64,000 nucleotides of DNA from positions 62,001 to 126,000 of the forward strand of contig JACBFI010000004.1 of assembly GCA_013391385.1 (NCBI GenBank), written 5' to 3'. This stretch comes from Sediminibacterium sp. Gen4 (GTDB taxonomy: Bacteria > Bacteroidota > Bacteroidia > Chitinophagales > Chitinophagaceae). A model generated the notes under the pieces. That model had not been told where the DNA came from. It made no database searches and was given only the letters and a program-made list of their open reading frames with translations. Within the stretch, counting starts at the first letter, position 1, and each line of letters opens with the position of its first letter. A program made the position numbers and the translations under genes. Of the stretch, positions 142 through 60,911 are shown piece by piece.

Positions 142-211
142 AGTCAATAGTCGATAGCAAATAGTCCATAGAAGATTACCATTAACTATGGACTATCAGC
201 CATTTGCTATC
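142..211. repeat. Heptamer-period inverted repeat upstream of ispH
   Basis: The left arm (142-171) reads as consecutive 7-base units: agtcaat, agtcgat, agcaaat, agtccat, ag. The right arm (186-211) is its inverted counterpart. Read on the minus strand the right arm is the left-arm segment 153-171 with exactly one extra 7-base unit (ggctgat) inserted. A 14-base spacer separates the arms, so the RNA or DNA could form an imperfect hairpin just upstream of the ispH promoter box. Member of the heptamer-repeat class seen at several other sites in this window. Confidence 0.8.
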
Positions 212-213
212 CC

Positions 214-221
214 TATCTTTG
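214..221 (+). promoter_or_regulatory. Bacteroidota -7 box (TATCTTTG) of ispH
   Basis: TATCTTTG matches the Bacteroidota -7 consensus TAnnTTTG and ends 4 bases before the ispH ATG at 226. Transcription would start almost on the start codon, so the mRNA would be leaderless or nearly so. No clear -33 TTG at the right spacing was seen. Confidence 0.5.
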
Positions 222-225
222 CTAC

Positions 226-1449
226 ATGAAGCAGTTCAATGTACCCGGAGAATACCGGAGCCCTTTGATTGGGAACATTAAGCAGAGAAGAAAAGAGCAG
301 GATAAATTAAAAAAAGATTTCTCCCCTACATTATTAGATCTTGGGGACTTGCAAATTTATTTAGCACGTCATTTTGGGTTTTGTTATGGTGTTGAAAATG
401 CCATTGAAATTGCTTTTAGAACCATTGACGAAAATCCGGGTAAGAGAATTTTTTTATTGAGTGAGATGATTCACAATCCACAAGTAAATGCGGATCTTCT
501 ATCAAAAGGTGTTCAATTTTTGCAAGACACCAAAGGAAAACAGTTGATTGCTTTTGATACGCTTACCAAGGATGATGTGGTCATCATTCCTGCATTTGGA
601 ACTACGCTGGAAATAGAAGCCATTTTGGAAGCAAAGGGAATACCCACTGAAAAATACAATACCACCTGTCCATTCGTTGAAAAAGTATGGAACCGAAGTG
701 AGCAAATTGCCAAGAAAGGGTACAGTATTGTAGTGCATGGTAAACCTCAACATGAAGAAACCAGAGCCACATTTTCACATGCTTCTTATCATACCCCCAC
801 AGTAGTAGTCAATGATATGGCTGAAACCATTGAATTAGCGAAATATATTACAGGCGAAAAACCTGCTCCTGACTTTTACCACGAATTTAAAGGTCGCTAT
901 TCAGAGGGATTTGATATTACAAAAGATCTACAAAAAATAGGAGTCGTTAATCAAACCACACAACTCGCAACTGATACTCAGGCTATTTCCGACTACTTAA
1001 AAAGTGTTTTCATTCGTCATTACCAATTAACAGCCGGTAATATAGCAGATCGTTTTGCAGATACCAGAGACACACTCTGTTATGCCACCAACGATAATCA
1101 AACCGCAGTAACGGGTATGCTTGCAGATACTGAGGCTGATATTGCCATTGTGATTGGAGGATATAATAGTAGTAATTCCTCACACTTAGTAGAACTGTGT
1201 GAAGAAAAGTTGACGACATATTTTATTGATGCCGCTGATAAATTGGTAGATCAACAAGAAATTCATCACCGCAATTGGAGAACAAAAGAACTAATATCCA
1301 TACATAATTATCTGCCTAAAAAGACACCACTTCGTGTTTTGATGACAAGTGGAGCCAGTTGTCCGGATGCCGTTGTTGAAGCCGTTATTCGAAAACTAGC
1401 TGGGTTTTATCAAGTTGAAGAACAACTAGAAAAATATATAGATGCATGA
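226..1449 (+). CDS. ispH: 4-hydroxy-3-methylbut-2-enyl diphosphate reductase (IspH/LytB)
   Basis: Catalyses the last step of the non-mevalonate isoprenoid pathway, reducing HMBPP to IPP and DMAPP with a [4Fe-4S] cluster in the cytoplasm. The 407-residue protein is longer than the E. coli type and resembles the long form of cyanobacteria, plastids and Bacteroidota, with an N-terminal extension of about 40 residues. Cluster cysteines are visible at C53 (GFCYGV), C148 (NTTCPF) and C285 (TLCYATND); a further Cys lies in SGASCPDA near residue 379. A substrate-site His is in HGKPQHEE around residue 171. The last codons overlap the start of the SMR exporter gene (ATGA), indicating co-translation. 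Confidence 0.95.
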   Translation: MKQFNVPGEYRSPLIGNIKQRRKEQDKLKKDFSPTLLDLGDLQIYLARHFGFCYGVENAIEIAFRTIDENPGKRIFLLSEMIHNPQVNADLLSKGVQFLQDTKGKQLIAFDTLTKDDVVIIPAFGTTLEIEAILEAKGIPTEKYNTTCPFVEKVWNRSEQIAKKGYSIVVHGKPQHEETRATFSHASYHTPTVVVNDMAETIELAKYITGEKPAPDFYHEFKGRYSEGFDITKDLQKIGVVNQTTQLATDTQAISDYLKSVFIRHYQLTAGNIADRFADTRDTLCYATNDNQTAVTGMLADTEADIAIVIGGYNSSNSSHLVELCEEKLTTYFIDAADKLVDQQEIHHRNWRTKELISIHNYLPKKTPLRVLMTSGASCPDAVVEAVIRKLAGFYQVEEQLEKYIDA

Positions 1450-1772
1450 GTTGGATCATCCTCATCATAGCAGGTTTATTTGAAGTGGGTTTTGCCGCTT
1501 GTTTGGGTAAAGCCAGACTCACTAGTGGAATGACTGCGATTGGCTGGTATGGAGGCTTTTTACTTTGTTTAACCATCAGCATGTTATTACTCATAAAAGC
1601 CACACAAGAGTTACCCATAGGCACGGCTTATGCGGTATGGACAGGGATCGGAGCGGTTGGAACTGTTATCATGGGTATTCTTTTCTTTAAAGAACCTGCA
1701 GATTTTTGGAGACTTTTTTTCATCACTACATTGATTGCTTCTATTGTTGGATTAAAGGTTGTTAGCCATTAA
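1446..1772 (+). CDS. SMR family exporter, SugE/Gdx (guanidinium) type
   Basis: A 108-residue inner-membrane protein with four predicted transmembrane helices, the usual length of small multidrug resistance proteins, which work as dual-topology dimers exchanging substrate for protons. The essential membrane Glu is E13 (GLFEVGFA). The PIGTAYAVWTGIGAVGT segment is typical of the SugE/Gdx branch, whose characterised members export guanidinium rather than broad quaternary ammonium drugs; substrate here is inferred. The start codon overlaps the ispH stop, so both are probably made from one transcript. Confidence 0.88.
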   Translation: MSWIILIIAGLFEVGFAACLGKARLTSGMTAIGWYGGFLLCLTISMLLLIKATQELPIGTAYAVWTGIGAVGTVIMGILFFKEPADFWRLFFITTLIASIVGLKVVSH

Positions 1773-1868
1773 TCCGTTACACATTTTTAGTGATTTCAAT
1801 ATCCTCCATTGCTCAAAGAAGTATTCATTCACTTCAGAAGCGTATATTTATAGTAACTTATAAAGTAC

Positions 1869-2495
1869 GTGAAAGAAAAAAAATCTGCTAGCGGTATCTA
1901 TATTTTTGGCAGTCTTATTAGCATTATAGCTGTAGGCTTACAGCTATGGGTAACCCTGAACAACAGAGAAGTTTCTATTCTACATACCATCATTCGTTTC
2001 TTTAGCTATTTTACCATACTCACCAACAGTCTTGTAGCGATTTATTTCACTTGCTTATGGCTTTTTCCTGCAACAAAGTTGGGGCTCTTCTTTAATAAAT
2101 TCAGTACCACTACAGCGATTACGGTGTATATTCTTGTGGTGGGCATCATCTATAATTTGCTATTAAGAAATATCTGGACAGTTACCGGATGGGGCAAGGT
2201 AGCAGATGAACTACTACACAGTTTCATTCCTGTATATTTTCTTGTTTATTGGTTATTTTTTACAGACAGAAAAAAACTAGAATGGAACGATGCTTTGCCT
2301 TGGTTATATTACCCACTCGCCTACCTTATTTACACATTAATCAGAGGCTCTATTACACATACCTATCCATATCCTTTTATCAATGTAATTAAGTTAGGTT
2401 ATCAGCAAACTTTGATTAATTGTCTTGGTGTAGGTGTGGTATTTTATGGACTGTTTCTGCTCATGATCGCTATCAGTAAAAAGAACAACGCCTAA
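1869..2495 (+). CDS. Pr6Pr family integral membrane protein
   Basis: A 208-residue protein with about six hydrophobic segments. It contains the FSYFTILTNSLVA stretch, conserved aromatic/Trp pairs and the loop of the Pr6Pr family (related to the FAR-17a/AIG1 fold). The start is GTG at 1869, followed by a Lys-rich N terminus. No function is established for the bacterial family. It stands alone between the SMR gene and another small membrane gene on the same strand. Confidence 0.7.
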   Translation: MKEKKSASGIYIFGSLISIIAVGLQLWVTLNNREVSILHTIIRFFSYFTILTNSLVAIYFTCLWLFPATKLGLFFNKFSTTTAITVYILVVGIIYNLLLRNIWTVTGWGKVADELLHSFIPVYFLVYWLFFTDRKKLEWNDALPWLYYPLAYLIYTLIRGSITHTYPYPFINVIKLGYQQTLINCLGVGVVFYGLFLLMIAISKKNNA

Positions 2496-2547
2496 TTAAC
2501 TACTGTTCTCCTAAACTAGTTTCCAGGATAATTGTTACAAATCCTAT

Positions 2548-2919
2548 ATGCGTTTTGTATATCTGGCAAATATCATTGTAGCGGGATGGATTGGCATATC
2601 AGCCCTTTTCTTTCCATCATATGCGGCTAGAACTGTATTTTCAAATGCCTATTCAGTTACTCCAGTGATACAGCTAACCGGAGCACTTTGGTTATCAATT
2701 GCAGTACTATCTGTATTCGGCTTCTTATATCCAATTCAATTTTCAGCAGTTTTATTATTACAACTGATCTATAAATCCTGTTGGTTGCTGTTTGTGTGCT
2801 TACCTGCCATTCAAAATAATAAGCCATACCCTGGAGGTATGGCTGTATTTTTTATTGTATGGGTTTTGATGCTTCCTTTTGTTATCCCGTGGAAATATCT
2901 ATTGAGTCAACACTATTAA
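2548..2919 (+). CDS. Hypothetical four-helix membrane protein
   Basis: A 123-residue, strongly hydrophobic protein with four predicted transmembrane helices (about residues 5-22, 40-62, 65-85 and 98-118). The helix layout is reminiscent of DoxX/DUF4345-like small membrane proteins, but I see no diagnostic motif and do not assign a family. It converges on the metal-efflux adaptor gene: its TAA (2917-2919) overlaps that gene's stop on the other strand. Confidence 0.65.
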   Translation: MRFVYLANIIVAGWIGISALFFPSYAARTVFSNAYSVTPVIQLTGALWLSIAVLSVFGFLYPIQFSAVLLLQLIYKSCWLLFVCLPAIQNNKPYPGGMAVFFIVWVLMLPFVIPWKYLLSQHY

Positions 2920-4055
2920 TCATCTTCCATTTTATTTTTCAACTTACCCAACAAACTGTAGGCGTTTTTGAGTACTACTTTTTGTTGTCTCCAATCGGTA
3001 TTTTCTTTTGCCTTTAACTCAATCATTTGCCGATCAGAAATGCCGATCTCTACTTCCACCATTTCAAATCGGGTAGAATCTTTTGCAATAAAAATGTAAG
3101 GCTTACTCTGATAACGAACGACCGCTGATTCCGGAACAGCGATGGCTTTCTTATTATCCAATTCAAAGCTACCATTCAGGAACATGCCCGGCAATAATTC
3201 ATGATTGGCATTTTCAAAATGACAATGCACCAATCCGCCTCTGTTCTCATCCACATTTCTGGTTACCAGAATAACATCTACTTCATATTTTTTTCCCGGC
3301 TTATCAGCAAGTGTAACACTTGCACGCATTCCTTTTTTGATCTGCATAATATCTTTTTCAAAAACCGTAAGTGCTGCATGAATATCATCAGGATCTACTA
3401 ACTCAAATAATACATCGGCTGGATTCACATACTTACCAATATTAACATTGACTTTGGCAACATATCCATTGATTGGAGATCTTAAACTAATAGTACGTGT
3501 AATAGTATTAACTGATAATTTTTCCGGATCAATACCTACGATTCTTAGCTTCTCTTCTAAAGATCGTATCAATACTTGTTGTATTTTAAACTCAGATGAT
3601 GCTTGTTGATAGGTTTTCTTACTCGCGGCATCTTGTTCACTCAGCTCTTTTTGACGACTAAGATCAGTACTGAGAAACTCCATTTTAGCTTTTGCCATCA
3701 AATAATCCTGTTGTAGCTGTACATAGCTCTGATCTTCCAGTATGGCTATGACTTCCCCTTTTTTTACCCCCATTCCCGGAAGTAGATGAGAACTTTTTAA
3801 GTAGCCCCCTAAAGGAAAACTCACTGACACCATACCCTGTGGTGGTACATCAACAACACCATTCACTTTGATAGTACTGTGCATATTCATTTCAGCAGGA
3901 TAGCCGATAGTAATGTCAGCATTTTTTAGTTGCTCTGCATTGAGTTCAACCATAGTCTCATGCTCCTCTTCTTTTACAACCTCAGTTGCAGCTTCTTCTT
4001 TTGTTCCGCATGATAGTAATACCACCATTACGATACTTAGCATATATTTTTTCAT
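2916..4055 (-). CDS. RND efflux periplasmic adaptor subunit (CusB/CzcB type lipoprotein)
   Basis: Membrane-fusion protein linking the inner-membrane RND pump to the outer-membrane channel of a heavy-metal efflux complex. The 379-residue protein starts with a lipoprotein signal (lipobox LLSC, Cys about residue 16). It then has a barrel-sandwich/lipoyl-like half, a coiled coil (about 105-170) with alternating Gln/Glu/Lys, the second half-motif SPINGYVAKVNVNIGKYV, and a beta-barrel domain. ATG at 4055 is preferred over an in-frame TTG at 4070, because the ATG gives a clean signal and begins 11 bases after the pump stop codon. No His- or Met-rich metal-binding tail is evident. Confidence 0.88.
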   Translation of the reverse strand: MKKYMLSIVMVVLLSCGTKEEAATEVVKEEEHETMVELNAEQLKNADITIGYPAEMNMHSTIKVNGVVDVPPQGMVSVSFPLGGYLKSSHLLPGMGVKKGEVIAILEDQSYVQLQQDYLMAKAKMEFLSTDLSRQKELSEQDAASKKTYQQASSEFKIQQVLIRSLEEKLRIVGIDPEKLSVNTITRTISLRSPINGYVAKVNVNIGKYVNPADVLFELVDPDDIHAALTVFEKDIMQIKKGMRASVTLADKPGKKYEVDVILVTRNVDENRGGLVHCHFENANHELLPGMFLNGSFELDNKKAIAVPESAVVRYQSKPYIFIAKDSTRFEMVEVEIGISDRQMIELKAKENTDWRQQKVVLKNAYSLLGKLKNKMEDD

Positions 4056-4066
4056 ATAACAGCTTA

Positions 4067-7000
4067 TCAATTCTTTTGTAATAAATAATCCAGCTGAATT
4101 TCATTCAACTGATGATCTCTTTGTACATCGGCATACTGCATTTGAATACCCAAAGCCTGATTCACCAATGTAGCCCACTCAATATAACTGATCTGCCCGT
4201 TTTTATAGTTCAGATTGGCAGTTTGTATAATGATATTGGATTGCGGCAAGGCACTGTTTTTAAAATAAGTCAAAGACGAATTGAACTTATCCCTGTGCTG
4301 TAATGCCTGTTGTAATTGAGTCTTTAAACGTAATGCAGCAATATCGGTATTTGCTCGATTCACCTGTTCCTGAACATTCGCTGCTTCTACCTTTGCTTTT
4401 TGTGCTTTATTGAAAAATGGAATAGACATCCCTAAAGTCACTGAAGAAAAACGATCTCCGGCAGTAAAGAAGCGTTCTGATCTGTTTTTATATTCCATCC
4501 ATCCCATTAATGACTGGTTATTATACCCAATCAGCCATTCGGGTCTTAGTTTTGCTTTCGCCAGTTGGGTTTCAGCTGCTGCCTGTTGCTCCTGTGCTTT
4601 GTAATACTGAAGTTCAGGATGTTGTTGTAATAAAGCAGTATCATACAATTGCTGAACAGTTACCAGTTCATCAGCCGGAACAATGGTGATGGCATCTTGT
4701 AACAACAACGCAAGTTCTAATTGAATAGCTTTACGATCAGATACATTCATCTGCATCATTTGCCGATTTTGCATAACCTGATTATCTAATGTTGTTTTCT
4801 CTAATAAATTGGATTCCCCTTTTTCAAAACGAAGCTGGGCTACTCTTTGAAAACTTCCATAAACACTATCGGCACGTTCTAGTACTTTTTTCCTTGCCAT
4901 CAAGTATTGTAATTCCAGGTATAGTTGACGGACTATTTTTTCCAATACCTGTTGTTGTATGACCGTATTCGCTTCAGCAGCGTTCAAATAACTATTCAAT
5001 ACCAACTCTTGCTTTCGATATACTATGCCTGCTGAGAAGGGTTGTAAAATCGATACACGTGAATCAAAATTGAAACTGTTATAATTACCTAGTTCTGTGA
5101 CCAACTGTGTTTTCGGAATATCCCTGGCTGTTCCTTTTAGTGCTGTATAGTATTTTTCTTGAAGTTGCCCCACTTTTAAGATGGGCGATTTTTCTTTGAC
5201 CAACTCCAACAGTTTTTCCAGTTTCATCGTCTGTGGTTGTTGCGCCTGCAAAGACCATGTCGACAACATCATTACAATAACAAGTAAAGGTTTCATGGGT
5301 ATTTGAATCTTTTTCTTTTCAAATAAAAGATACAAGGAAGGCAATACAAAGAGTGTAAGAAGTGTAGCTGATAATAACCCACCAATTACAACTGTTGCTA
5401 ATGGTCGCTGTACTTCCGCTCCAGCACCGTTACTCAATGCCATTGGTAAAAATCCAAGTGATGCAACAGCTGCTGTCATAAGAACAGGTCTTAATCTCGT
5501 TTCTGTTGCTTGAGCTATCACTTCCGGTATGGATGAAGAATTATTTTCTGCTTTTAACCGATTCATTTCTGTGATCAATACAATACCATTCAATACTGCA
5601 ACCCCAAACAATGCGATGAATCCGATTCCTGCGGAAATACTGAAAGGCATATCACGAATCCATAATGCAAATACTCCTCCAATAGCCGATAATGGAATGG
5701 CCGAAAAGATCAATAAACAGTATTTGAATTTTCTGAATGCAAAAAACAGCATCACAAAAATGAGTAACAAAGCGGCAGGTACTGCAATAGCCAATCGCTT
5801 GGTTGCTTGTTGCAGATTTTCAAACTGCCCTCCATAAGTAGCATAATAGCCTGCAGGTAGTTGAACTTGCTTTTTCACTTTGTTTTGCAACTCCTCCACA
5901 ATCGACTGTACATCTCTACCCCTAACATTAAACCCGATGGTGATCCGTCTTTGTGCATCTTCTCGTTGTATCTGATAAGGACCTTCCTGAATAGCTACAT
6001 GGGCCAGCACATTAAGAGGCACTTGTTGTCCGGATGGAAGCTCTACCAGCAGATCCCCAATCTCATCTACATTGTTGCGCTGCGACTCATTCAAGCGAAT
6101 CACCAAATCAAATCGCCTATCATTTTCGAAAATTTGTCCGGCAACACTTCCGGCATAAGCTGCTTGCACAGACCTATTCACTTCCGCAATCGTTGCACCG
6201 TATCGAGCAATGGCTTCTCTGTTATATGATATCACAAGTTGAGGAATACCGGTTACTGTTTCAACAAAAAGATCTTTGGCGCCTTCTACTGTTCCAATCA
6301 CTTCTCCTACCGCTGCTGCATATCTTGCCAAACTATCCAGATCATCCCCAAAGATTTTACAAACCACATCCTGTCTTGCTCCGGTCATTAACTCATTGAA
6401 ACGCATTTGCACCGGATACTGGAATCCGGTAGTTACACCCGGAACCGACGATACCCTTTCTCCCATTTTCTCCGCCAGTTCATCAAAAGTTTTGGCACTC
6501 GTCCATTCTTTTTTATCCTTTAATACAATGATCATATCAGCAGATTCGATGGGCATGGGATCTGAAGGAATTTCTCCTGTTCCGACTTTTGTAACGATCT
6601 TTTCTACTTCAGGAAATTCTTTTAATAAAATCTTTACTGCTTTCTGACTCTCTTGTAAAGTGGTCGTAAGTGAAGACCCTGTAAGTACCCTTGTTTCAAC
6701 GGCAAAATCACCTTCTTCTAACTTGGGTATGAACTCACCACCTAATGAGGATAGCACTACAACAGCTGCTGCAAACAATACTACTGACGAACCAATAATA
6801 ATACCCGGCGCTTTCATGGACTTATGCAATAGCGGTTTATACCATTGTTGTAGTCTTTGCATCATCTTATCAGAAATATTCTCTTTGTGACCTTGCTTTC
6901 TACTTAAAAAGAAAGCACTCATCATAGGTACATAGGTAAGCGATAAAATGAATGCCCCCAGTATAGCAAATGAAACCGTTTGTGCCATTGGCTTGAACAT

Positions 7001-8422: not shown

Positions 8423-8538
8423 GCGCTTGATTTTAACTTCTGATCAATTAAGATACACTTATATCTATGAGATCCATTTTGCTATCGGTAAACGGCAAAT
8501 GGTATCCCCTGTTCTGTGAATACTACATCTTCTGGTAA

Positions 8539-14686: not shown

Positions 14687-14717
14687 TTGTAAAATTGTAA
14701 ATTGTAAATTAAGAGTG

Positions 14718-14749
14718 CAAATGTACGCCTAAAAAACTGCCCCACCAAT
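14718..14749 (-). promoter_or_regulatory. Bacteroidota promoter of the cold-shock gene
   Basis: On the minus strand an ATTGG (-33 core TTG) is followed after about 20 bases by TACATTTG (14718-14725), matching the TTTG / TAnnTTTG pattern of the Bacteroidota housekeeping sigma factor. The start codon is about 31 bases downstream. The leader contains two to three copies of the 7-base unit AATTTAC. Confidence 0.65.
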
Positions 14750-23690: not shown

Positions 23691-23733
23691 AGCACTTACA
23701 AAATACAAAAGAAGCTGGGATTTTGGTTACGTC

Positions 23734-23761
23734 TAATGGTCAATGGTCCATAGTCCATGGT
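23734..23761. repeat. Four-unit heptamer array next to the clpB terminator
   Basis: Four consecutive 7-base units: taatggt, caatggt, ccatagt, ccatggt. The array ends directly against the clpB terminator hairpin. The same array-plus-hairpin pair recurs downstream of ssb (43648-43726). Confidence 0.75.
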
Positions 23762-23800
23762 AAAAGAAGGAGGCTGTACCAAAACTTTGATACAGCCTCT
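23761..23800 (-). terminator. Terminator of clpB
   Basis: Stem gaggctgta / tacagcctc (23770-23778 and 23791-23799), extendable inward by caaa/tttg, followed on the minus strand by CTTCTTTT. It lies 6 bases after the clpB stop codon. Confidence 0.82.
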
Positions 23801-23805
23801 TTGCA

Positions 23806-35650: not shown

Positions 35651-36919
35651 ATGAGTATTGCATTACGGGACAAAAATTGCATTTGGCACCCTTTTACCCG
35701 ACAAAAAAATATGGCCGATCCGATTGCTATTATAAAGGGTAAAGGATCCTTATTGTTTGACGAACAAGGGAATAGCTATATTGACGCTATCAGTAGTTGG
35801 TGGGTAAACTTACATGGACATGCACACCCTTATATCGCAGAAAAATTATACCAGCAGGCTTTAGAATTGGAACAGGTAATCTTTGCCGGATTTACGCACC
35901 GTCCGGCTGTTGAATTGGCAGAACGGCTACTGGCTATTTTACCGGGAAATTTTTCAAGAATATTTTATAGTGACAATGGATCTACCTCTACAGAAGTAGC
36001 TTTGAAAATGGCTATCCAGTATTGGTGGAATCAGGATCAGAAACAAAGGAACAAGCTCATCGCTTTCAAAAATAGTTATCATGGCGATACTTTCGGTGCC
36101 ATGAGCGTAAGTGATCGCAGTGTTTTTACATTGGCTTTTCATGAACTTCTTTTTGACGTTGTTTTTCTGGATACGCCTACACAAGAAAACATCAGTGAAT
36201 TAAAGACCACCATGCAGCAGCATGCAGCACAAACAGCCGCCTTTATTTATGAGCCTTTGGTTCAAGGTGCAGGTGGTATGAATATGTATGATCCTTACCT
36301 GCTCAATGAATTGTTGAATACAGCTAAGCTCAATGATATCATTTGTATTGCAGATGAAGTCATGACTGGATTCGGAAGAACCGGAAAATTTTTCGCCAGT
36401 GAGTACATGAATAAACAACCGGATATTATCTGTTTGAGTAAAGGTCTAACGGGTGGTACCATGGCACTAGGTGTAACAGCTTGTACCGATCGTATTTATC
36501 AGGCTTATGTGAATGATGATGCCATGAAAACATTTTTTCATGGCCATTCGTTTACAGCTAACCCTTTAGCTTGTACAGCAGCGTTAGCGAGTTTAGATTT
36601 ATTAGAAAAAGAAAGCTGCTTATTACAAATAGAAAAAATCACTGCTGCGAATATTTCCTTTGCGGATCAACTACGTACTACTGAACTACCCATTAAAGAT
36701 GTTCGCAGCTTGGGTACTATTCTTGCATTCGAAATAGATCAGGGTAAAAAAGAATACCTGAATCAAGTAAGTGCAACCATCACAAAAAAAGCATTAGATG
36801 CAGGCATGTACATTCGTCCACTCGGAAATACTGTTTATATCATGCCTCCATATTGTATTCTAGATGAGGAATTGGAGAAAGTGTATGAGTTTCTTCTTTC
36901 GGGTTGGGGGTTGAGTTGA
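35651..36919 (+). CDS. bioA: Adenosylmethionine-8-amino-7-oxononanoate aminotransferase (BioA)
   Basis: A PLP enzyme of biotin synthesis converting KAPA to DAPA with S-adenosylmethionine as amino donor. It is a 422-residue class III aminotransferase. The N terminus reads RDKNCIWHPFTRQKN, typical of BioA. Further on are SSWWVNLHGHAHPYIAE, YSDNGSTSTEVALKMA and YHGDTFGAMSVS. The PLP Lys region is ICLSKGLTGGTMALG and HSFTANPLACTAALASL follows. No other bio gene is adjacent. The TGA stop lies inside the first unit of a heptamer array that spans to the stop of the convergent gene. Confidence 0.95.
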   Translation: MSIALRDKNCIWHPFTRQKNMADPIAIIKGKGSLLFDEQGNSYIDAISSWWVNLHGHAHPYIAEKLYQQALELEQVIFAGFTHRPAVELAERLLAILPGNFSRIFYSDNGSTSTEVALKMAIQYWWNQDQKQRNKLIAFKNSYHGDTFGAMSVSDRSVFTLAFHELLFDVVFLDTPTQENISELKTTMQQHAAQTAAFIYEPLVQGAGGMNMYDPYLLNELLNTAKLNDIICIADEVMTGFGRTGKFFASEYMNKQPDIICLSKGLTGGTMALGVTACTDRIYQAYVNDDAMKTFFHGHSFTANPLACTAALASLDLLEKESCLLQIEKITAANISFADQLRTTELPIKDVRSLGTILAFEIDQGKKEYLNQVSATITKKALDAGMYIRPLGNTVYIMPPYCILDEELEKVYEFLLSGWGLS

Positions 36920-37040
36920 TAGTTGACAGATGATAGTTGACAGGAAGAAGTAAAGTAATTCTTGCTAATTACTTTACATTAATTATGAGTATATAAAATA
37001 TATAGTCCATGATCTACTGTCAACTATAAACTGTCAACTT
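36914..37040. repeat. Heptamer-period inverted repeat filling the gap between two convergent stops
   Basis: The left arm (36914-36943) is agttgat, agttgac, agatgat, agttgac, ag. The right arm (37003-37040), read on the minus strand, is agttgac, agtttat, agttgac, agtagat, catggac, ta. A 23-base stretch matches between arms with two mismatches. The 59-base AT-rich spacer is unrelated. The bioA TGA lies in the first unit, and the TAA of the facing gene abuts the other end, so the element occupies the whole gap. It could act as a bidirectional terminator. Confidence 0.85.
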
Positions 37041-42972: not shown

Positions 42973-42977
42973 TCAAA

Positions 42978-43647: not shown

Positions 43648-43688
43648 ATAGTTCATGGTTATGGTCCATAGTCCATGGTCGATAGTAA
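43648..43688. repeat. Heptamer array next to the ssb terminator
   Basis: Units atagttc, atggtt (one base short), atggtcc, atagtcc, atggtcg, atagtaa. The middle shares atggtccatagtccatggt (19 bases) exactly with the array beside the clpB terminator, and like it abuts a terminator hairpin. Confidence 0.75.
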
Positions 43689-43726
43689 AAGAAAGAGGTT
43701 GCATCTGACTTTTGATACAACCTCTT
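43689..43726 (-). terminator. Terminator of ssb
   Basis: A 13-bp stem (aagaggttgcatc / gatacaacctctt, one mismatch) with an 8-base loop, followed on the minus strand by TCTTTTAC, about 30 bases after the ssb stop. The hairpin is a diverged copy of the clpB terminator. Confidence 0.82.
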
Positions 43727-43755
43727 CGCTTGGTAATTTATATGACCTGGTTTGA

Positions 43756-53157: not shown

Positions 53158-53207
53158 TACAGCTGTAAAACGAAGGGCAAAACGGAGTTTGAAACTTATC
53201 CTGGTAT

Positions 53208-53888: not shown

Positions 53889-53918
53889 TACTTTGAATAA
53901 ATTTTCAAATTGAAAATA

Positions 53919-55643
53919 ATGAAAAAATTACTGCTTCTCCTACAACTATTTATGTTTCAACAATTATTTGCACAGAAATGGCAAACAGTTTTTGAACAAT
54001 CAGCAGGTAAACAGACCGTTACCTATGAGGAATGTATCCGCTACTATACAGCATTGGATGCTACTTTTTCTACCATTCATATCCAACAATTTGGGCTTAC
54101 AGATGCCGGATATCCCTTACACTTAGTGCTTTTCAGCAATGACGGAACCCATGACCCTGCCATCTGGCATAAAAGAAATAAACTGGTGATCATGATCAAC
54201 AATGGCATTCATCCCGGAGAGCCGGATGGTATTGATGCCAGCATGATGTTTTTAAGAGACCTGGCCACGGGTAAAATCAAAGCTCCTGATAATGTCGTAT
54301 TAGGAATCATTCCTGTGTATAATATTGGTGGAAGTTTAAACAGAAATTCTTTTTCCAGGGTCAATCAAAATGGACCAGAAAGCTATGGCTTTCGAGGTAA
54401 TGCACAGAACCTTGATCTGAATCGTGATTTTATTAAAAACGATAGTCGCAATGCCAAAGCGTTTGCAAAAATTTTTCATTACCTGAATCCAGACATACTG
54501 GTAGACAACCATGTGAGTGATGGTGCCGATTACCAGCATACCATGACATTACTGACTTCTCAACACAATAAGTTAGGTTCAATTATGGGTGCATACCTAC
54601 ATGATGTTTTTGAGCCTTCCTTATACAAAGGAATGGAGCAAAAAAACTGGAACCTGATTCCTTATGTAAGTTTTGAAGGAGGAAATCCGGAAAGAAATTG
54701 GACTGCTTTTTATGATGCACCTAGGTATAGCAGTGGTTATGCTGCTTTGTTTCAGACGATGGCATTTATGCCCGAGACACATATGCTGAAACCCTATGAC
54801 CAGCGCGTGAAAAGTACTTATGATCTGATGCAAACATTTCTGGAAGAAGGATCCAAACAAGCTGAAGCTATCAAAACAACCAGAAAAAAAGCCATTGATG
54901 CTGTAAAGCAACAACAGGAATTTCCCCAAACCTATCGTGTAGATACGACTCGATTTGATCAAATCAAATTCATGGGATATGCTTCTGCTCAAAAAATCAG
55001 TGAAGTAACCGGAATGAACAGGATGTATTATGATCGATCAAAACCTTATACCAAGGAAATCAGGTACTATAATTATTTTACTGGCGAACAGTTGGTGACT
55101 AAACCTAAAGCCTATATCATTCCTCAAGGATGGCATGAAGTAATCGACAGATTAGCTATCAACAATGTAACCATGCAAAGACTGAAGAAAGATACCCTGA
55201 TTGAAGTAGAAGTATCCAGAATTACAGATTACAGAACAGCTAGCCGACCTTTTGAAAAACATTATCGGCAGTCAGGCATTCGTGTATCGCAACAAAAAGA
55301 AAAGATTCGTTTTCTAAAAGGAGATTATATCATTTATACCGGACAAGCTGCTGACCGATTCCTGATTGAAACCCTGGAAATTGGAACCGATGACAGCTAT
55401 TTCTCCTGGAACTTTTTTGATGCCATCCTCCAGCAAAAAGAGGGCTATAGCAATTACAGATGGGAAGATGTTGCCGCCACGTATTTACAAGCACATCCTG
55501 AACTTAGAGCCGAACTCGATGCCAAAAAGAAAGCGGATGAAAAGTTCGCTGCATCCGCCAATGCGCAACTGGATTTTGTCTACAAGAAATCACCTTACTA
55601 TGAGCCTGCACATATGAGGTATCCGGTGTTTAGGTTGGAGTAG
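53919..55643 (+). CDS. M14 family zinc carboxypeptidase, exported
   Basis: A 574-residue exported protein (signal peptide MKKLLLLLQLFMFQQLFAQ). The carboxypeptidase-A-type fold in the first half shows the zinc motif NNGIHPGEPDGIDASMM (His and Glu about 90), NLNRDF-type LDLNRDFIK and VDNHVSDGADYQH. The catalytic Glu region follows as FMPETHML. The C-terminal 250 residues are beta-rich and unassigned. ATG at 53919 replaces an in-frame TTG three codons upstream. The TAG stop lies at the first unit of a heptamer array. Confidence 0.87.
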   Translation: MKKLLLLLQLFMFQQLFAQKWQTVFEQSAGKQTVTYEECIRYYTALDATFSTIHIQQFGLTDAGYPLHLVLFSNDGTHDPAIWHKRNKLVIMINNGIHPGEPDGIDASMMFLRDLATGKIKAPDNVVLGIIPVYNIGGSLNRNSFSRVNQNGPESYGFRGNAQNLDLNRDFIKNDSRNAKAFAKIFHYLNPDILVDNHVSDGADYQHTMTLLTSQHNKLGSIMGAYLHDVFEPSLYKGMEQKNWNLIPYVSFEGGNPERNWTAFYDAPRYSSGYAALFQTMAFMPETHMLKPYDQRVKSTYDLMQTFLEEGSKQAEAIKTTRKKAIDAVKQQQEFPQTYRVDTTRFDQIKFMGYASAQKISEVTGMNRMYYDRSKPYTKEIRYYNYFTGEQLVTKPKAYIIPQGWHEVIDRLAINNVTMQRLKKDTLIEVEVSRITDYRTASRPFEKHYRQSGIRVSQQKEKIRFLKGDYIIYTGQAADRFLIETLEIGTDDSYFSWNFFDAILQQKEGYSNYRWEDVAATYLQAHPELRAELDAKKKADEKFAASANAQLDFVYKKSPYYEPAHMRYPVFRLE

Positions 55644-55733
55644 GTTATAGCCTATGGTTCATAGCGTATGGTAGAAAATATTGAGTAATTCATATCATTC
55701 ATGCTATATGCTATGACCTATAAGCTATCTGCC
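55642..55733. repeat. Heptamer-period inverted repeat between convergent stops (second example)
   Basis: The left arm (55642-55676) is aggttat, agcctat, ggttcat, agcgtat, ggtagaa. The right arm (55691-55733), read on the minus strand, is cagatag, cttatag, gtcatag, catatag, catgaat, gatatg. The first unit overlaps the M14 TAG, and the right arm ends one base before the stop of the facing MFS gene. Arms are similar but not identical; the spacer is 14 bases. Confidence 0.82.
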
Positions 55734-55734
55734 A

Positions 55735-56922: not shown

Positions 56923-56968
56923 AATCAGCTTTTAAAAAATTCCGGGGATAAGATTAATAACCTTACAT

Positions 56969-57000
56969 AAAAAAGGTAACCCGATTGAGTTACCTTTTTT
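56969..57000 (-). terminator. Terminator of the DUF2807 gene
   Basis: A perfect 12-bp stem (aaaaaaggtaac / gttacctttttt) with an 8-base loop, so the A-run and T-run form part of the stem and either strand ends in T's. It lies 3 bases after the DUF2807 stop. Confidence 0.9.
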
Positions 57001-57003
57001 AAT

Positions 57004-57726
57004 TTATTGTTGTAGCTTTTTCACTTCTCCGCTACCACTTACTTTTTGGGATATTACTGCTTCTCCTTTATAATAAACAGATCCAATACCACTAATGGAG
57101 ACATCCAATTTATTATCGGCAAAGATTTTAACATCACCACTACCTGATATCTTCACAGAAGCATTTTCAGCCTTTAGCTCTGAGGCATTGCAGTCTCCAA
57201 TACCACTGATTTGAATTTTCGCATCTCGTGTTTCACCTGAAAGTACAAGAGAGCCACTGCCACTGATCTTTGCATCCAGTTCAGGGGTATTGGTTTCTAA
57301 ACGCAGATCGCCTACTCCGGAAACACTTAGTTTCAAACGATCGGAGCCGGTAAACTTATTCATCCCGATGATACTTCCGGAACCTGATAACTTTAACTGC
57401 TCAAGTTTAGGAGTAGTGATATATACTTTCAGCTTTTCACTGGTAATAAAGTTGATATTCCTTCTCATTTTCACTACCAGTTCATCCCCCTCCATTTCTG
57501 TAATAATATATTCCTGAAGATTTTCATCTGCTTCTACTTTTACGGTTGTTCCCTCTCCTTGGGTGAGTTCAACATCCATAAAACCTTTCAAATGAATTCT
57601 CTCAGCGGTAAGTCCTGATCTTTCCTCAACAGTTACGTTTCCATTCCCTTTCACTCGTTTTGACCCGATAAATACACAGGAACCGAGCAGGGAAACAAAG
57701 GCCACTGTGATGAAAAAAATTCTCAT
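57004..57726 (-). CDS. Head GIN domain (DUF2807) lipoprotein
   Basis: A 240-residue lipoprotein (lipobox LGSC, Cys about 17) made of a right-handed beta-helix of the DUF2807/head-GIN family. Repeated short rungs carry S-G-S-G or S-G-x-G turns (KLSGSGSI, SVSGVGDL, KISGSGSLVL, QISGIGDC, KISGSGDV, SISGIGSV, KVSGSGEV). Function is unknown; such proteins are usually periplasmic or surface-exposed. Single gene with its own terminator, divergent from guaA. Confidence 0.9.
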   Translation of the reverse strand: MRIFFITVAFVSLLGSCVFIGSKRVKGNGNVTVEERSGLTAERIHLKGFMDVELTQGEGTTVKVEADENLQEYIITEMEGDELVVKMRRNINFITSEKLKVYITTPKLEQLKLSGSGSIIGMNKFTGSDRLKLSVSGVGDLRLETNTPELDAKISGSGSLVLSGETRDAKIQISGIGDCNASELKAENASVKISGSGDVKIFADNKLDVSISGIGSVYYKGEAVISQKVSGSGEVKKLQQ

Positions 57727-57832
57727 GTTGTTGGTTTAAGACCTCGAAATTATCAAAAAGGGCCCTGAATCCATCACCATTCCTGTGGATTTTATGACCA
57801 TTTATACGCTCTCAAGACCACCAAATTTCATT

Positions 57833-57840
57833 TACCTTCG
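57833..57840 (+). promoter_or_regulatory. -7-like box (TACCTTCG) of guaA
   Basis: TACCTTCG differs from TAnnTTTG at one position and ends 4 bases before the guaA ATG at 57845. It suggests an almost leaderless mRNA and argues against the longer open-frame start at 57785. Confidence 0.45.
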
Positions 57841-57844
57841 CGCC

Positions 57845-59380
57845 ATGACAGAAAAAATCCTCATTCTTGACTTCGGTAGTCAGTACACCCAACTGATCGC
57901 CAGGGCTGTTCGTGAAGCCAATGTATATTGTGAGATCATTCCTTTTCATAAACCCTTTCAATATGAAAAAGGCTTAAAAGGAATTATTCTCAGTGGTTCT
58001 CCTTTCAGCGTCAATGAAGAGAATGCCCCCAATGTTGATATCGCTACTATGATCAGCCAATTACCCGTATTGGGAGTTTGTTATGGTGCACAACTGACCG
58101 CTAAAAATTTTGGAGGACGTGTAGATAAATCAAATAAAAGAGAATATGGTCGCGCAAAAATGGAAGTGCTGCAAGAAGACCAGCTCTTAATGGGTGTAGC
58201 CAATGGATCGCAAGTATGGATGAGTCATAGTGATTCGATTGTTGCGCTGCCTGATGGCTTTGAGATCACTGCCGTAACAGAAAGTATTCCTGTGGCTGCA
58301 TTTAAAAAAAATGGTACTGATACTAATCCTTTATACGGCATTCAATTTCACCCAGAAGTATACCATTCAACAGAAGGCAAAAAAATCATCCGCAACTTTT
58401 TAGTCAACATCTGTGGTTGCACACAGGACTGGACGCCGGCTTCATTTGTTCATGAAACAGTGGAACAACTCAAAGAACAGATTGGCGACCATCATGTGAT
58501 CATGGCATTAAGTGGTGGTGTAGATAGTACGGTAGCTGCTACTTTAATCAGTAAAGCCATTGGTAATCGATTACATGGAATATTTGTAGACAATGGTGTA
58601 TTGAGAAAAGATGAATTCAAACAAGTTTTAGATACTTATAAAACAATTGGACTGAATGTTACCGGTATAGATGCCAGTCAGCGCTTTTATGATGAGTTCA
58701 AAGACAAAACCGATCCTGAAGCAAAAAGAAAAGTGATTGGTCGGTTGTTCATTGATGTATTTCAGGAAGAAGCTAAAAAAGTAGCAGGTGTAAAATTTTT
58801 GGGACAAGGCACCATTTATCCGGATGTGATTGAAAGTGTAAGTGTACATGGTCCATCACAAACCATTAAATCACATCACAATGTAGGAGGCTTACCAGAT
58901 ACCATGCATTTAGATCTGGTGGAACCTCTGCGTTATCTTTTTAAAGATGAAGTGAGAAAAGTGGGATTGGAATTGGGCATCCCTGCGGATATGATCAATC
59001 GTCATCCGTTCCCTGGACCGGGTTTGGCCATCAGAATATTGGGAGAAGTAACAGCAGAAAAAGTAGCCTTATTGCAGGCCGCAGATGATATATATATCAA
59101 AGCGTTGAAATCTCATGGTCTTTATTCGCAGGTTTGGCAGGCCGGAGCCATTCTATTGCCTGTTAAAAGTGTAGGAGTAATGGGTGATGAACGTACTTAT
59201 GAATTTACAGTTGCCCTAAGAGCTGTTACCTCAGTTGATGGCATGACAGCCGACTGGGCTCATTTACCTTATGAGTTCCTGGCACATGTTTCTAATGAGA
59301 TCATCAATAACGTTCGAGGTATTAACAGAGTGGTATATGACATCAGCAGCAAACCACCTGCAACCATCGAGTGGGAATAG
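57845..59380 (+). CDS. guaA: GMP synthase (glutamine-hydrolysing)
   Basis: Converts XMP to GMP using glutamine and ATP. The 511-residue protein has an N-terminal class I glutamine amidotransferase domain with Cys in [10 protein letters not shown] (about 78) and the His-Glu of QFHPEVYHS. The ATP-pyrophosphatase domain follows with the PP-loop [15 protein letters not shown] (about 222), and the dimerisation domain ends PATIEWE. ATG at 57845 matches the conserved [17 protein letters not shown] start. It ends in TAG. Confidence 0.97.
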
Positions 59381-59384
59381 GCAT

Positions 59385-59392
59385 TATTTTTG
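59385..59392 (+). promoter_or_regulatory. -7-like box (TATTTTTG) before the periplasmic-binding-like gene
   Basis: TATTTTTG fits TAnnTTTG, 17 bases before the ATG at 59410 and 4 bases after the guaA stop. The gene could have its own promoter as well as read-through from guaA. Confidence 0.35.
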
Positions 59393-59409
59393 AGTAGTTA
59401 AGATCACAT

Positions 59410-60582
59410 ATGCGTATACTTAGAAAGTTCATACTTGTACTCATCATTTTGATCAGTCACTATTCTGCTTCTGCTCAGGAACAATCAAAAGTTTGGAAAG
59501 TAGCAGTATTTGCACCCGTTTACCTAGACTCTGCTTATACCCAAGATGGCAACTATCGTCTGGGTAATCAGATATTACCTCGCTACATGATGCCGGGTTT
59601 GGATTTTTATAATGGTGTGATGTTGGCCATCGATTCACTCAATGCGGAGAAGCAACCCATTGAAGTTGTTTTTTACGATTCAAAGAGTATGAAAGGCAGT
59701 ACCCACAACGCCATTCTTGATTCTACGCTTGCAGATGTTTCATTGATCATCGCCTCTTTCAATAATAGAAATGAGATCAAGCCTTTGGCTGATTTTGCAT
59801 TAGAACATGAAATACCATTGATCTCAGCTACTTATCCCAATGATGCAGGACTTACCGAAAACCCCTATTTCATTCTGATCAACCCAACACTAAGAACACA
59901 TCTGGAAGGCATGTATACTTATTTGCAAAGAGTATACCCCACCAGTACTATGACGATGTTTAGAAGAAAGGGTGCAGTAGAAGATATGATTCAGAACAGT
60001 TTTGCTGAGATTGCCAAAAGTTCAACATCAGTTCCTTTAAAAATTAAAACGGTAGAGCTGACAGACAGCTTTACCACAAGTCAGGTGATTAGCTATTTAG
60101 ATAGTAGCCGTCAAAATATCGTGATCTGTGGTACCCTGAATGAAACTTTCGGAATCAATCTTGTAAAATCATTGAGTGAATCCAAAAAATATAGGAGTAT
60201 CGCCATAGGTATGCCTACATGGGATGCTTTGAGAGGCGTTGATAGAAATGTAGAAATTGTATATACCACACCGTATCATTTTGTTAGAACAGATAAGATA
60301 GGACTGGATATTACCAACAGCTATCGAAACAAATTTTCAGGTAGACCCAGCGATATGGTATTCAAAGGGTTTGAAGCCATGTATCGTTTTACCAAACTGC
60401 TGATTAAACATGAGGGTTCTCTAATAAAAAATATGTCTGATAAAAGTTTAAAGCTCTTTAATGATTTTGATCTTCAACCTGTAAACCCCTACAGCAATAA
60501 CCCCAACGCAGTGGATTATCTGGAGAACAAAAAACTGTACTTTATCCGAAAAATGGATGGTCAGATTCGTTCAGTCAACTAA
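59410..60582 (+). CDS. Periplasmic-binding-protein-like (type I fold) exported protein
   Basis: A 390-residue protein with a signal peptide (cut after SASAQ, about residue 22). It has a type I periplasmic-binding fold like the Peripla_BP_6 / branched-chain amino acid receptors: WKVAVFAPVYLDS, GVMLAIDSLNAEKQPIEVVF, DVSLIIASFNNRNEIKPLAD and a last part GRPSDMVFKGFEAMYRF. No ABC transporter genes are nearby. Bacteroidota have many such stand-alone proteins, some with LysM domains, which I do not see here. Ligand unknown. Confidence 0.78.
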   Translation: MRILRKFILVLIILISHYSASAQEQSKVWKVAVFAPVYLDSAYTQDGNYRLGNQILPRYMMPGLDFYNGVMLAIDSLNAEKQPIEVVFYDSKSMKGSTHNAILDSTLADVSLIIASFNNRNEIKPLADFALEHEIPLISATYPNDAGLTENPYFILINPTLRTHLEGMYTYLQRVYPTSTMTMFRRKGAVEDMIQNSFAEIAKSSTSVPLKIKTVELTDSFTTSQVISYLDSSRQNIVICGTLNETFGINLVKSLSESKKYRSIAIGMPTWDALRGVDRNVEIVYTTPYHFVRTDKIGLDITNSYRNKFSGRPSDMVFKGFEAMYRFTKLLIKHEGSLIKNMSDKSLKLFNDFDLQPVNPYSNNPNAVDYLENKKLYFIRKMDGQIRSVN

Positions 60583-60618
60583 ATCCCAACAAAATATTAG
60601 TCTGCTTGTTAAAGTTGC

Positions 60619-60852
60619 ATGCAAGATTTTAAAGGCAACAAATCTTCCTTACCCTCCAAGATCTGTGTTACCTGTCAACGACCTTTCTCCTGGCGTAAAA
60701 AATGGGAAAAAGTATGGGATGAGGTTAAGTATTGTTCGGACAAATGCCGTCGAAAGCCACAAGCTGCAAGCTACAGGCTACAAGGAAAGAGTTCAAAGCC
60801 TCAAGCTTCAAGCCGCAGGCTACAAGAAATTGGATATAAGAATAAAAATTAG
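60619..60852 (+). CDS. DUF2256 zinc-ribbon-like small protein with repeat-encoded tail
   Basis: A 77-residue protein. Residues 1-45 are the full DUF2256 domain: LPSKICVTCQRPFSWRKKW, then EKVWDEVKYCSDKCRR, with a four-Cys zinc-binding pattern at C16, C19, C39 and C43. DUF2256 proteins usually end about there. Codons 46-69 are instead encoded by an intergenic-type heptamer array starting exactly at codon 46 and give a 14-residue repeat (KPQAASYRLQGKSS, then KPQASSRRLQEIGY). The tail ends KNKN and a TAG. Function of the family is unknown. Confidence 0.8.
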   Translation: MQDFKGNKSSLPSKICVTCQRPFSWRKKWEKVWDEVKYCSDKCRRKPQAASYRLQGKSSKPQASSRRLQEIGYKNKN

Positions 60853-60911
60853 TTCATAACTTTTTTGCAAAGTTTGAAGCTTGTAGCTTGAGGCTTGTGG
60901 CTTGAAGCTTA
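60754..60911. repeat. Heptamer-period inverted repeat overlapping the DUF2256 gene 3' end
   Basis: The left arm (60754-60826) has ten units: aagccac, aagctgc, aagctac, aggctac, aaggaaa, gagttca, aagcctc, aagcttc, aagccgc, aggctac. The right arm (60872-60911), read on the minus strand, has aagcttc, aagccac, aagcctc, aagctac, aagcttc, aaac. Left-arm units 1-4 and 7-10 are two copies 42 bases apart. The right arm ends 9 bases before the exonuclease start codon. The 45-base spacer is AT-rich. Confidence 0.9.

Follow-up and report, generated by a model that had tools for sequence, protein, structure and literature searches.

Heptad hairpins in Sediminibacterium: seven-base repeat arrays that mostly keep their positions and often differ in their units between sister species

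The window analysed here, a stretch of 64,000 nucleotides from Sediminibacterium sp. Gen4, contains six sites built of consecutive, imperfect seven-base units (heptads), four of them with two inverted arms and two with a single arm (Table 1). The single arms lie 3' of clpB and ssb, neighbours already named by the initial annotation and confirmed by gene name, and each adjoins an ordinary terminator-like hairpin. Each site was scored by the highest number of lag-7 matches reached over 21 positions, with p values from 2000 dinucleotide shuffles per site. The period of seven initially described was recovered at 6/6 sites (p 0.0005–0.0035), and no other lag examined (5, 6 and 8–11; for the shortest site 5 and 6 only) scored above 12. 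The inverted counterpart proposed for four sites was likewise borne out by RNA folding (z-scores of -5.6 to -6.9).

Table 1. Heptad sites and adjoining hairpins in the window (lag-7 matches in 21 positions; p from dinucleotide shuffles).
Feature	Position	Strand	Lag-7 score	p	RNA fold z	Parts and context
Two-arm heptad hairpin, AGTCNAT units	142..211	.	14/21	0.0035 (weakest of six)	-5.6	5' arm about 142-171, 3' arm about 182-211; directly upstream of ispH (226-1449)
Single-arm heptad array, GGTCCAT/AGTCCAT	23734..23761	.	17/21	0.0005	-0.2	3' of clpB
Ordinary terminator-like hairpin	23770..23802	.				Adjoins the clpB array; read from sequence
Two-arm heptad hairpin, AGTTGAC	36914..37040	.	16/21	0.001	-6.9	Arms about 36914-36943 and 37011-37039; convergent flanks, bioA and a carboxypeptidase-regulatory-domain protein gene
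Single-arm heptad array, GGTCCAT	43648..43688	.	15/21	0.0005	-1.4	3' of ssb
Ordinary terminator-like hairpin	43694..43728	.				Adjoins the ssb array; read from sequence
Two-arm heptad hairpin, TATAGCC-type	55642..55733	.	16/21	0.001	-6.4	Convergent flanks, M14-peptidase-like and MFS genes
Heptad hairpin, AAGCTNC	60754..60911	.	17/21	0.0005	-5.6	5' runs 60754-60784 and 60796-60826, 3' arm 60870-60910; first part read as C-terminus of ORF 60557-60859

The periodicity is specific to seven and lies above the shuffled level. The intergenic DNA of the window (38 pieces, 4,845 bp) gave seven runs of at least 15 matches at lag 7 and none at lags 5, 6 or 8–13; in 200 shuffles of these pieces the lag-7 count averaged 0.1, with a maximum of 1. 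Over the entire window, 15 windows reached this score vs 1.1 in 10 shuffles, some of these runs being coding or low-complexity stretches outside the heptad class. An Rfam 15 search of the window at gathering score returned no match. In the complete genome (G000), one unit pattern gave 431 matches vs 5 for its reversed control, a control that is not valid for AGTGAAA units because these are nearly identical when read backwards. By extrapolation, this genome would hold a few hundred heptad hairpins. Of 137 arrays, 106 were located in called intergenic gaps and 24 in called genes, the remainder standing at stretch ends; the class is mostly intergenic, in line with the initial description, and genome-wide. 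Its distribution within the one genus is uneven, sampled stretches of some species holding almost no arrays: G000, G315, G156, G361, G345, G340, G033 and G127 are array-rich, and G017, G334, G291, G353 and G010 array-poor.

Comparison with the colinear genome of a sister species (G315) revealed that most array positions are kept in both species and that orthologous positions often carry different unit types, or dialects. For 26 sites in 104 kb of colinear DNA, with occupancy defined as at least 13 of 21 matches, the sister genome carried the same dialect at 12, a different dialect at 8 and no array at 6. Occupancy was thus 20/26, vs 4/38 for array-free G000 gaps, and at the stricter threshold of at least 15 it was 15/26 vs 1/38. 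The G000 stretches and many of the G315 ones were chosen for holding matches, and some of their gaps are orthologous, so counts drawn from these stretches are not independent. Within the window, the gap orthologous to site 36914 holds a smaller AGTGAGT hairpin (12/21), that orthologous to site 55642 holds GGTCCAT-type arrays, and the counterpart of site 60754 retains its dialect (14/21). A search of 20 genomes for third-species orthologs of the 55642 gap brought up a close relative of its gene in no genome other than G000 and G315. Both single arms are absent from the sister genome, where the ordinary terminator-like hairpin stands alone 3' of clpB. At a further position (locus L004, 12921-13012), GTGAAAA units in G000 correspond to AGTGAGT units in G315 in regions of 123 and 122 bases that have a GTGAAAA-type edge in common, a case that, judged from sequence, we count for replacement and not insertion. 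In addition, the gap at L004 18138 differs by exactly seven bases between the two species; many other length differences between aligned gaps are not multiples of seven. The comparison of orthologous gaps proposed at the outset therefore yielded both a difference of one unit and a change of dialect.

Two enzyme genes carry arrays internally, again with dialects that vary between species. A loop of HisRS contains arrays in 7/25 orthologs, in two dialects, and all seven array-bearing loops have the usual length (132 or 135 nt). In an E1 dehydrogenase fusion, the alpha/beta linker holds arrays in 7/30 orthologs (own included), in several dialects at one common position.

Gene 3' ends are enriched in arrays over divergent gaps. 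With G000 and G315 pooled, arrays were present in 27/72 convergent, 87/341 codirectional and 13/93 divergent gaps. No canonical terminator was found in the convergent gaps holding two or more arrays (0/13), compared with 6/14 with one array and 23/42 with none (Fisher p 0.0003 for two or more vs none), and 10 of those 13 gaps hold inverted pairs. Canonical U-tract (Rho-independent) terminators were rejected as an identity for the hairpins themselves: the four two-arm sites of the window form stable hairpins, and across 60 hairpins no U-tract followed the 3' arm (in the terminal 12 nt T stands at 0.37, and A ahead of the 5' arm at 0.32), so they are not textbook intrinsic terminators. Both kinds are hairpins 3' of genes, and heptad hairpins exclude the canonical ones in convergent gaps; they differ from Rho-independent terminators in lacking the U-tract and in their seven-base repeat structure.

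The initial statement that each site uses its own heptamer went too far: the same units turn up at different sites, and a few dialects are common to several. Units of different sites in one genome agreed within one mismatch in 9.3% of comparisons in G000 (2.9% letter-shuffled) and 10.5% in G315 (2.2%), that is, at 3 to 5 times the null. Unit order is also partly kept between unrelated sites (4480 vs 4207 ± 23 shuffled), an effect that is significant though small in G000 (about 6%) and drawn from non-independent pairs. Between arms, unit order is mirrored in G000 (292 vs 259 ± 7) and G315 (182 vs 158 ± 5); among the matches listed from other phyla it is not significantly so (155 vs 145 ± 5, shuffle maximum 161). 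This cross-phylum set (L071-L181, at least 111 loci) was fetched with one dialect, which biases its consensus and lag-7 count. Units in G000 have a diffuse consensus, DGTNARW. A universal unit motif was rejected, the enrichment of RGNNA, a pattern picked after the units were seen, being mild. Joining all 136 G000 arrays in a single-link network was discarded as evidence, since a rough estimate suggests that most random heptamers would join too.

Altogether, the explanation that we place first, while stopping just short of commitment, is that these are 3'-end hairpins of imperfect seven-base repeats, held in place and rewritten by slippage and patch copying. Heptad hairpins would act as putative, possibly bidirectional, transcript-end structures, a role that may explain why they are kept in place. 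Their sequence would turn over through gain and loss of seven-base units by slippage, and short patches may be copied both from the facing arm and from arrays elsewhere in the genome, with shared heptads as the anchor for template switching or ectopic conversion. Slippage and patch copying together could then make a lineage drift towards a few dialects. The terminator contrast further suggests that array lineages may replace ordinary terminators by another 3'-end hairpin, which terminator predictors could miss.

Purely local generation, in which every site changes independently through slippage by seven and hairpin template switching and exchanges nothing with other sites, appears unlikely, although several observations speak for it. 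Adjacent units are more alike (5.19 of 7) than units at distance 4-6 (about 4.3), and template switching has been put forward as a hairpin maker in the accessible part of one report (PMC8794818). At site 142, the G000 5' arm complements its own 3' arm; in G315 the 3' arm is largely conserved and the 5' arm differs and pairs poorly. Sharing between G000 and G127 (8.2%) or G315 (8.9%) is close to that inside G000, as unit preference without exchange would predict, so part of it may reflect ancestry or preference. However, sharing is low in other pairs of genomes (G127 with G156 or G361 0%; G000 with G361 1.6%), and same-genome sharing exceeded the letter-shuffled null in every set tried. Unit order is common to sites as well, and arms match their own partner scarcely better than same-dialect arms of other hairpins (0.850 vs 0.823; own partner better in 16/24 in G000, 11/20 in G315 and 5/12 in congeners), which argues against arm-to-arm copying as the main process. 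The initial preference for local generation over transposition therefore stands in part: a transposon of fixed consensus is excluded, and a purely local origin is not sustained, given units and unit order shared across sites.

A mobile element of REP, MITE or HUH type, with hairpins as copies moved by a transposase, is improbable. REP elements are linked with RAYT transposases, and dispersed intergenic hairpins with partly conserved unit order would suit such a mechanism, as would the Y1 transposase (PF01797) that scores over cut-off in G000 and five others of 14 genomes. The enzyme does not track arrays, however, and was rejected as generator: Y1_Tnp has no match in the array-rich G315, G127 and G151, stays under the cut-off in G033, and does occur in G010, which has no array in 60 kb and one in another 20 kb. 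Whole hairpins as dispersed elements were also rejected, since loops are not shared between sites (mean score 10.5 vs 10.3 shuffled, 92 pairs); dissimilar loops and many dialects uphold the initial judgement against a single transposon family of fixed consensus. Furthermore, the HisRS loop gains no length, and arrays mostly re-use positions, with few array-free gaps filled in the sister species. For target-site duplication, the gaps aligned between G000 and G315 offered no clean filled/empty pair to compare.

More doubtful still is a telomerase-like, templated enzyme that extends 3' ends by heptads at fragile hairpin gaps, for which the purine/G-rich strand should run towards the loop on both strands. 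The 5' arm is indeed mostly purine- and G-rich in this genus; G exceeds C in that arm in 58/76 hairpins. Adjacent arrays in G000 are predominantly convergent (n=29: +- 22, -+ 0, ++ 6, -- 1), the convergent arrangement is the commonest one among the matches listed from other phyla (n=98: +- 43, -- 30, ++ 19, -+ 6), and the available part of the Xanthomonas study describes convergent pairs likewise (PMC4692102). Both arms share one dialect around unrelated loops, and single arms exist. Against this, the G bias vanishes among the matches listed from other phyla (G>C 9, G<C 8, n=19), divergent exceptions were seen by eye (L010 14023-14104 and L245 14092-14129, one of the two in G315), and selection on RNA could equally yield a purine-rich 5' arm. 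No candidate enzyme was found: reverse transcriptases (PF00078) were rejected, occurring in 7/14 genomes without tracking arrays and being absent from the array-rich G000, G156, G361, G033, G345 and G151. Loss of the SbcD hairpin nuclease (TIGR00619) confined to array-rich genomes was rejected too; the nuclease was over cut-off in 0/14 genomes, with weak matches in 11, alike in array-rich and array-poor genomes, so that its loss is at most a permissive background. The broader proposal that, in some lineages, an activity adds heptads to the 3' ends of DNA at gaps that bear hairpins, from an interchangeable template, giving each lineage a few dialects and rewriting old sites in place, we regard as equally doubtful; if true, the same convergent-polarity behaviour would extend across Bacteroidota, Cyanobacteria, Patescibacteria, Desulfobacteraceae and others.

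Least probable are sites at which a protein that binds DNA or RNA would read seven-base units, kept by selection for this binding: the mild, post hoc RGNNA enrichment (0.60 vs 0.41 letter-shuffled in G000; 0.61 vs 0.42 among the matches listed from other phyla with the query dialect removed) favours them, but the units are very diverse without a strong shared motif, dialects differ at orthologous sites, and the R-rich strand of single arrays has no preferred orientation to the genes (same in 8, opposite in 11).

Slippage and patch copying at retained hairpins thus remain the reading we carry into the comparison with known repeats, and the testable question raised is what copies seven-base patches between sites, why the step is seven, and why certain lineages alone are affected. 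The comparison thereby opens to testing a mode of DNA rewriting in bacteria that has received little study.

As a kind, heptad repeats are partly known; the initial annotation knew of no named family, but published relatives exist (PMC4692102, PMC4679880). The Xanthomonas GGGAATC and Nostoc GGGGA(C/T)T repeats, as far as described in the available part of PMC4692102, are likewise tandem, intergenic seven-base units with convergent inverted pairs (here 22 +- vs 0 -+ of 29 in G000) and a gene context kept in sister species, at 83% there compared with 20/26 (at least 13) or 15/26 (at least 15) here. In those repeats one G-rich unit with quadruplex potential dominates, whereas the present arrays lack the GGGANTN consensus with G-tracts and comprise many AT-richer dialects; sites inspected by eye have no GGG every seven bases. 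Three further traits set them apart: orthologous positions with differing dialects, arrays inside coding linkers, and convergent gaps with at least two arrays and no canonical terminator. Unit-type switching is not described in the available part of that paper (PMC4692102). The TAACTGA direct repeats of Beggiatoaceae, Cyanobacteria and some Bacteroidetes are similarly intergenic and patchily distributed, with mixed heptamers in some genomes, but, in the portion of the source consulted, they consist of one fixed heptamer, are almost never inverted (one case) and, in the studied Beggiatoaceae genome, sit for the most part immediately 5' of start codons (PMC4679880). As cited in the available parts of both papers, Mrazek 2007 found heptanucleotides to be the most abundant class of long simple sequence repeats in most prokaryote genomes and proposed polymerase slippage over about 7 nt; these repeats are tandem, and the citing passages mention neither dialects, inverted arms nor turnover (PMC4679880, PMC4692102). 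REP elements, as outlined in the available part of PMC3733652, are also short intergenic palindromes in many copies. Heptad hairpins differ from the REP/RAYT system in having no fixed palindrome consensus and no dependence on a Y1 transposase, and from MITEs and DNA transposons in having no interior common to copies (92 loop pairs). Many dialects and in-place switching were not found described, the titles and abstract openings brought up by searches of open-licence PMC papers containing no account of dialect switching in heptad hairpins. In the accessible parts of these sources, heptameric repeats are presented as simple repeats for which polymerase slippage is a possible explanation (PMC4692102, PMC4679880); in the present arrays it is the site that is conserved and the repeated word that varies, both between genes and inside two enzyme genes.

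All six intergenic sites for which the initial annotation had claimed an exact 7-base period bear it out, with 14–17 matches in 21 positions at offset 7 (the lag-7 score; shuffle p 0.0005–0.0035). The lag-7 scan of intergenic DNA proposed there, run on the window, yielded 7 runs scoring ≥15 against 0.1 expected, with no such runs at lags 5, 6 and 8–13. The inverted counterpart described for four sites was likewise found, as two-arm hairpins of imperfect heptads (fold z −5.6 to −6.9), while the clpB and ssb sites are single arms, each adjoining an ordinary terminator-like hairpin. Across the Gen4 genome (G000; 3.52 Mb searched, 98% complete), the pattern RGYYNATRGYYNATRGY has 431 matches versus 5 for its reversal. 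The window and 370 kb of further G000 stretches, a biased sample picked for holding pattern matches, contain 91 lag-7 runs ≥16, and each non-multiple of 7 among lags 4 to 22 gives at most 9. Of 137 arrays scoring ≥15, called intergenic gaps contain 106 and called genes 24, with about 90% of the DNA called coding; part of the in-gene matches are coding low complexity. Extrapolation from five to six sites in 64 kb gives roughly 300 heptad sites per genome.

Heptad-array sites and associated features in G000 (L-numbers, stretches outside the window)
Stretch	Position	Strand	Feature
Window	142-211		two-arm site
Window	14687-14719		TTGTAAA array in divergent gap, nearly identical in sister species; may be a promoter feature instead of a class member
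Window	23734-23761		single-arm site (clpB)
Window	36914-37040		two-arm site
Window	43648-43688		single-arm site (ssb)
Window	55642-55733		two-arm site
Window	60557-60859		short ORF, C-terminus encoded by heptad array; no Pfam match for that reading
Window	60754-60911		two-arm site
Window	60921-61937		ligase-associated DNA damage response exonuclease, adjoining largest array
L004	16110-16598		TadA-like ORF, N-terminal extension through heptad arrays
L007	2734-3675		IspE-like ORF, likewise
L015	44-1342		thiolase-like ORF, likewise
L016	13792-14811	-	DUF6787 domain and PurN in one frame; linker of two heptad arrays, different dialects; possibly a gene fusion through the array
L018	17769-17949		heptad-bearing stretch of ~60 bp present twice, imperfect copies ~100 bp apart

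A simple detector of canonical terminators (GC-stem plus T-run), run on stretches of G000 and its sister species G315, found one in 23 of 42 convergent gaps ≥40 bp without arrays, in 6 of 14 with one array and in 0 of 13 with two or more (two or more versus none, Fisher p 0.0003); 10 of these 13 hold inverted pairs by unit consensus. For convergent and codirectional gaps ≥60 bp together, the values are 50/184, 13/54 and 4/49, respectively (p 0.004). In the two species, arrays occupy 27/72 convergent, 87/341 codirectional and 13/93 divergent gaps. Furthermore, a heptad hairpin follows the HisRS stop in both, and the 170 nt past that stop contain no array ≥15 in the other 23 orthologs. Terminator exclusion, gap preference and the HisRS 3′ hairpin support, at the sequence level, a putative role as transcript-end hairpins, but no U-tract accompanies the heptad hairpins.

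Adjacent arrays in G000 are nearly always convergent (n = 29: +− 22, −+ 0, ++ 6, −− 1); among listed matches in other phyla (111 loci, n = 98) the counts are +− 43, −− 30, ++ 19 and −+ 6. Purines predominate in the 5′ arm of 63 of 80 hairpins, and G exceeds C there in 58 of 76 (4 ties), with a weaker A>T bias (51 versus 27, 2 ties); the G bias is missing in 19 cross-phylum hairpins (9 versus 8). Divergent exceptions are found in GGTCCAT, a quasi-palindromic dialect (recurrent unit type).

G315 (HisRS 91% identical; window colinear at ~82% DNA identity) was compared at 26 G000 sites in 104 kb of alignment, 4 coding matches being excluded. With ≥13/21 counted as occupied, 12 sites carry the same dialect, 8 a different one and 6 none, the direction of change being unpolarised between two species; at ≥15, 15 of 26 are occupied (8 same, 7 different). 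As a control, array-free G000 gaps score in G315 in 4/38 cases at ≥13 and 1/38 at ≥15. Three absences are weak calls: at window 36912 G315 has a small AGTGAGT hairpin (score 12), a decayed array lies at L004 15316, and L004 1358 is maybe no true site. Five occupied sites score only 13–14 (window 14692, 60751; L004 16598, 17386; L009 15763). The single arms at 23729, 43659 and L009 7061 are missing in G315, where the ordinary terminator-like hairpin stands alone. At L004 12921 the dialect differs at nearly equal length (123 and 122 nt) with one common edge. This comparison of orthologous gaps, proposed initially for strains, revealed an alignment gap of exactly 7 bases at L004 18138.

Each site had been credited with its own heptamer; units do differ between sites, but they fall into recurrent types (AGTCCAT, AGTGAAA/AGTCAAA, GGTGAAT/AGTGAGT, AGCTNCA, AGTTGAC, GATGTCN, AAATAAG). 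Within sets, 9.3% (G000) to 100% (congener G127) of site pairs have a common unit (≤1 mismatch), versus 1.3–4.3% under a letter-shuffled null. Sharing with G000 reaches 8.9% in G315 and 8.2% in G127, about equal to the within-G000 level, which counts against strictly genome-specific dialects; it is lower for G000–G156 (3.5%), G000–G361 (1.6%), G127–G156 and G127–G361 (both 0%). The arrays of G127 (L262–L264) are long, nearly pure AGTGAAG, up to ~12 units, and may be a recent expansion; those of G000 are short and mixed. Unit order is partly kept between non-orthologous G000 sites (4480 versus 4207 ± 23 shuffled, maximum of 100 shuffles 4275) and in five pooled congeners (3034 versus 2723 ± 18), with no similarity of inter-arm loops across sites. 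Mirrored unit order between arms is seen in G000 and G315, is less distinct in five congeners and is missing from the cross-phylum set. Same-dialect arms elsewhere match an arm nearly as closely as its own partner does (partner first: 0.850 versus 0.823 in G000, 0.826 versus 0.814 in G315, 0.758 versus 0.777 in five congeners).

Replication-linked slippage would alter the arrays and patches would be copied between them, with hairpin function holding positions in place; we infer the generator step, and give this combination slightly less than an even chance. It is favoured because Y1 transposases, reverse transcriptases and SbcD loss all fail to track arrays. Purely local generation at each site is unlikely; its standing was slightly raised, and that of slippage with patch copying slightly lowered, by G000–G127 sharing close to the within-G000 value. 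No SbcD over the curated cut-off was found in any of 14 genus and family genomes; where this hairpin nuclease is lacking, palindromes may be better tolerated.

Arrays also occur inside genes. A pyruvate-dehydrogenase-type E1 alpha/beta fusion has a convergent heptad pair as its interdomain linker. Linker arrays of several dialects occur in 7 of 30 congener orthologs (own included); flanks are similar in five of these seven, and two have a single arm. G315 carries yet another dialect. Seven of 25 HisRS orthologs have arrays in the loop preceding DFTLARG (AGTTGAC-type in G000, G315; GGTGAGT-type in G211, G345, G340, G156, G033), and their loop length is 132 or 135 nt, as in 23/25 overall. The array thus takes up the place of other sequence with no gain in length, which speaks against simple insertion; selection on loop length could produce the same constancy. 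The tabulated IspE-, TadA- and thiolase-like names were given by eye, and these ORF starts may be misplaced.

Within the genus, on 60 to 100 kb samples, arrays look close to all or none. No lag-7 runs ≥16 were found in 60 kb each of G017, G291, G353 and G010 (one array in another 20 kb of G010), and G334 has 1, A/T-rich, in 60 kb; G127 has 11 in 60 kb, all one dialect, G156 18 in 100 kb and G361 14 in 93 kb. The stretches sampled from G017 (L247–L249) lack heptads but carry a repeat of 9-base period, with 62 lag-9 runs in 60 kb. The AGTSAAA pattern occurs in 44 of 298 genomes of the order, a few very strong (G151 240 matches; genus-mates G297 and G331 0). An AGTCAAA array query of the genome-contig collection returned at least 111 stretches, those listed spanning Cyanobacteria, Bacteroidota, Patescibacteria, Desulfobacteraceae, Nitrospirae, Planctomycetota, Acidobacteria, Anaerolineales and others. 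These 111 listed loci hold 393 lag-7 runs, in part due to the query itself, versus 23, 54 and 34 at lags 6, 8 and 9; without arrays near the query dialect, 176/334 are left (stricter threshold 17). L145 (CAMBFS010000003.1), whose contig label reads Klebsiella pneumoniae MAG, has four lag-7 runs, one AGTCAAA type; that label may be wrong.

Heptameric over-representation and the slippage idea are credited to Mrazek and co-workers 2007 in excerpts of two papers (PMC4679880, PMC4692102). Excerpts of the latter describe Xanthomonas GGGAATC repeats as convergent pairs with 83% positional conservation, and G4-forming repeats at which transcripts start or stop more often than at a control set (PMC4692102). 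To the extent of those excerpts, the G000 arrays are of the same kind, alike in convergent-pair architecture; they are set apart by their many dialects that are not G-rich, by dialects that differ at orthologous positions, by arrays in coding linkers and by the exclusion of terminators.
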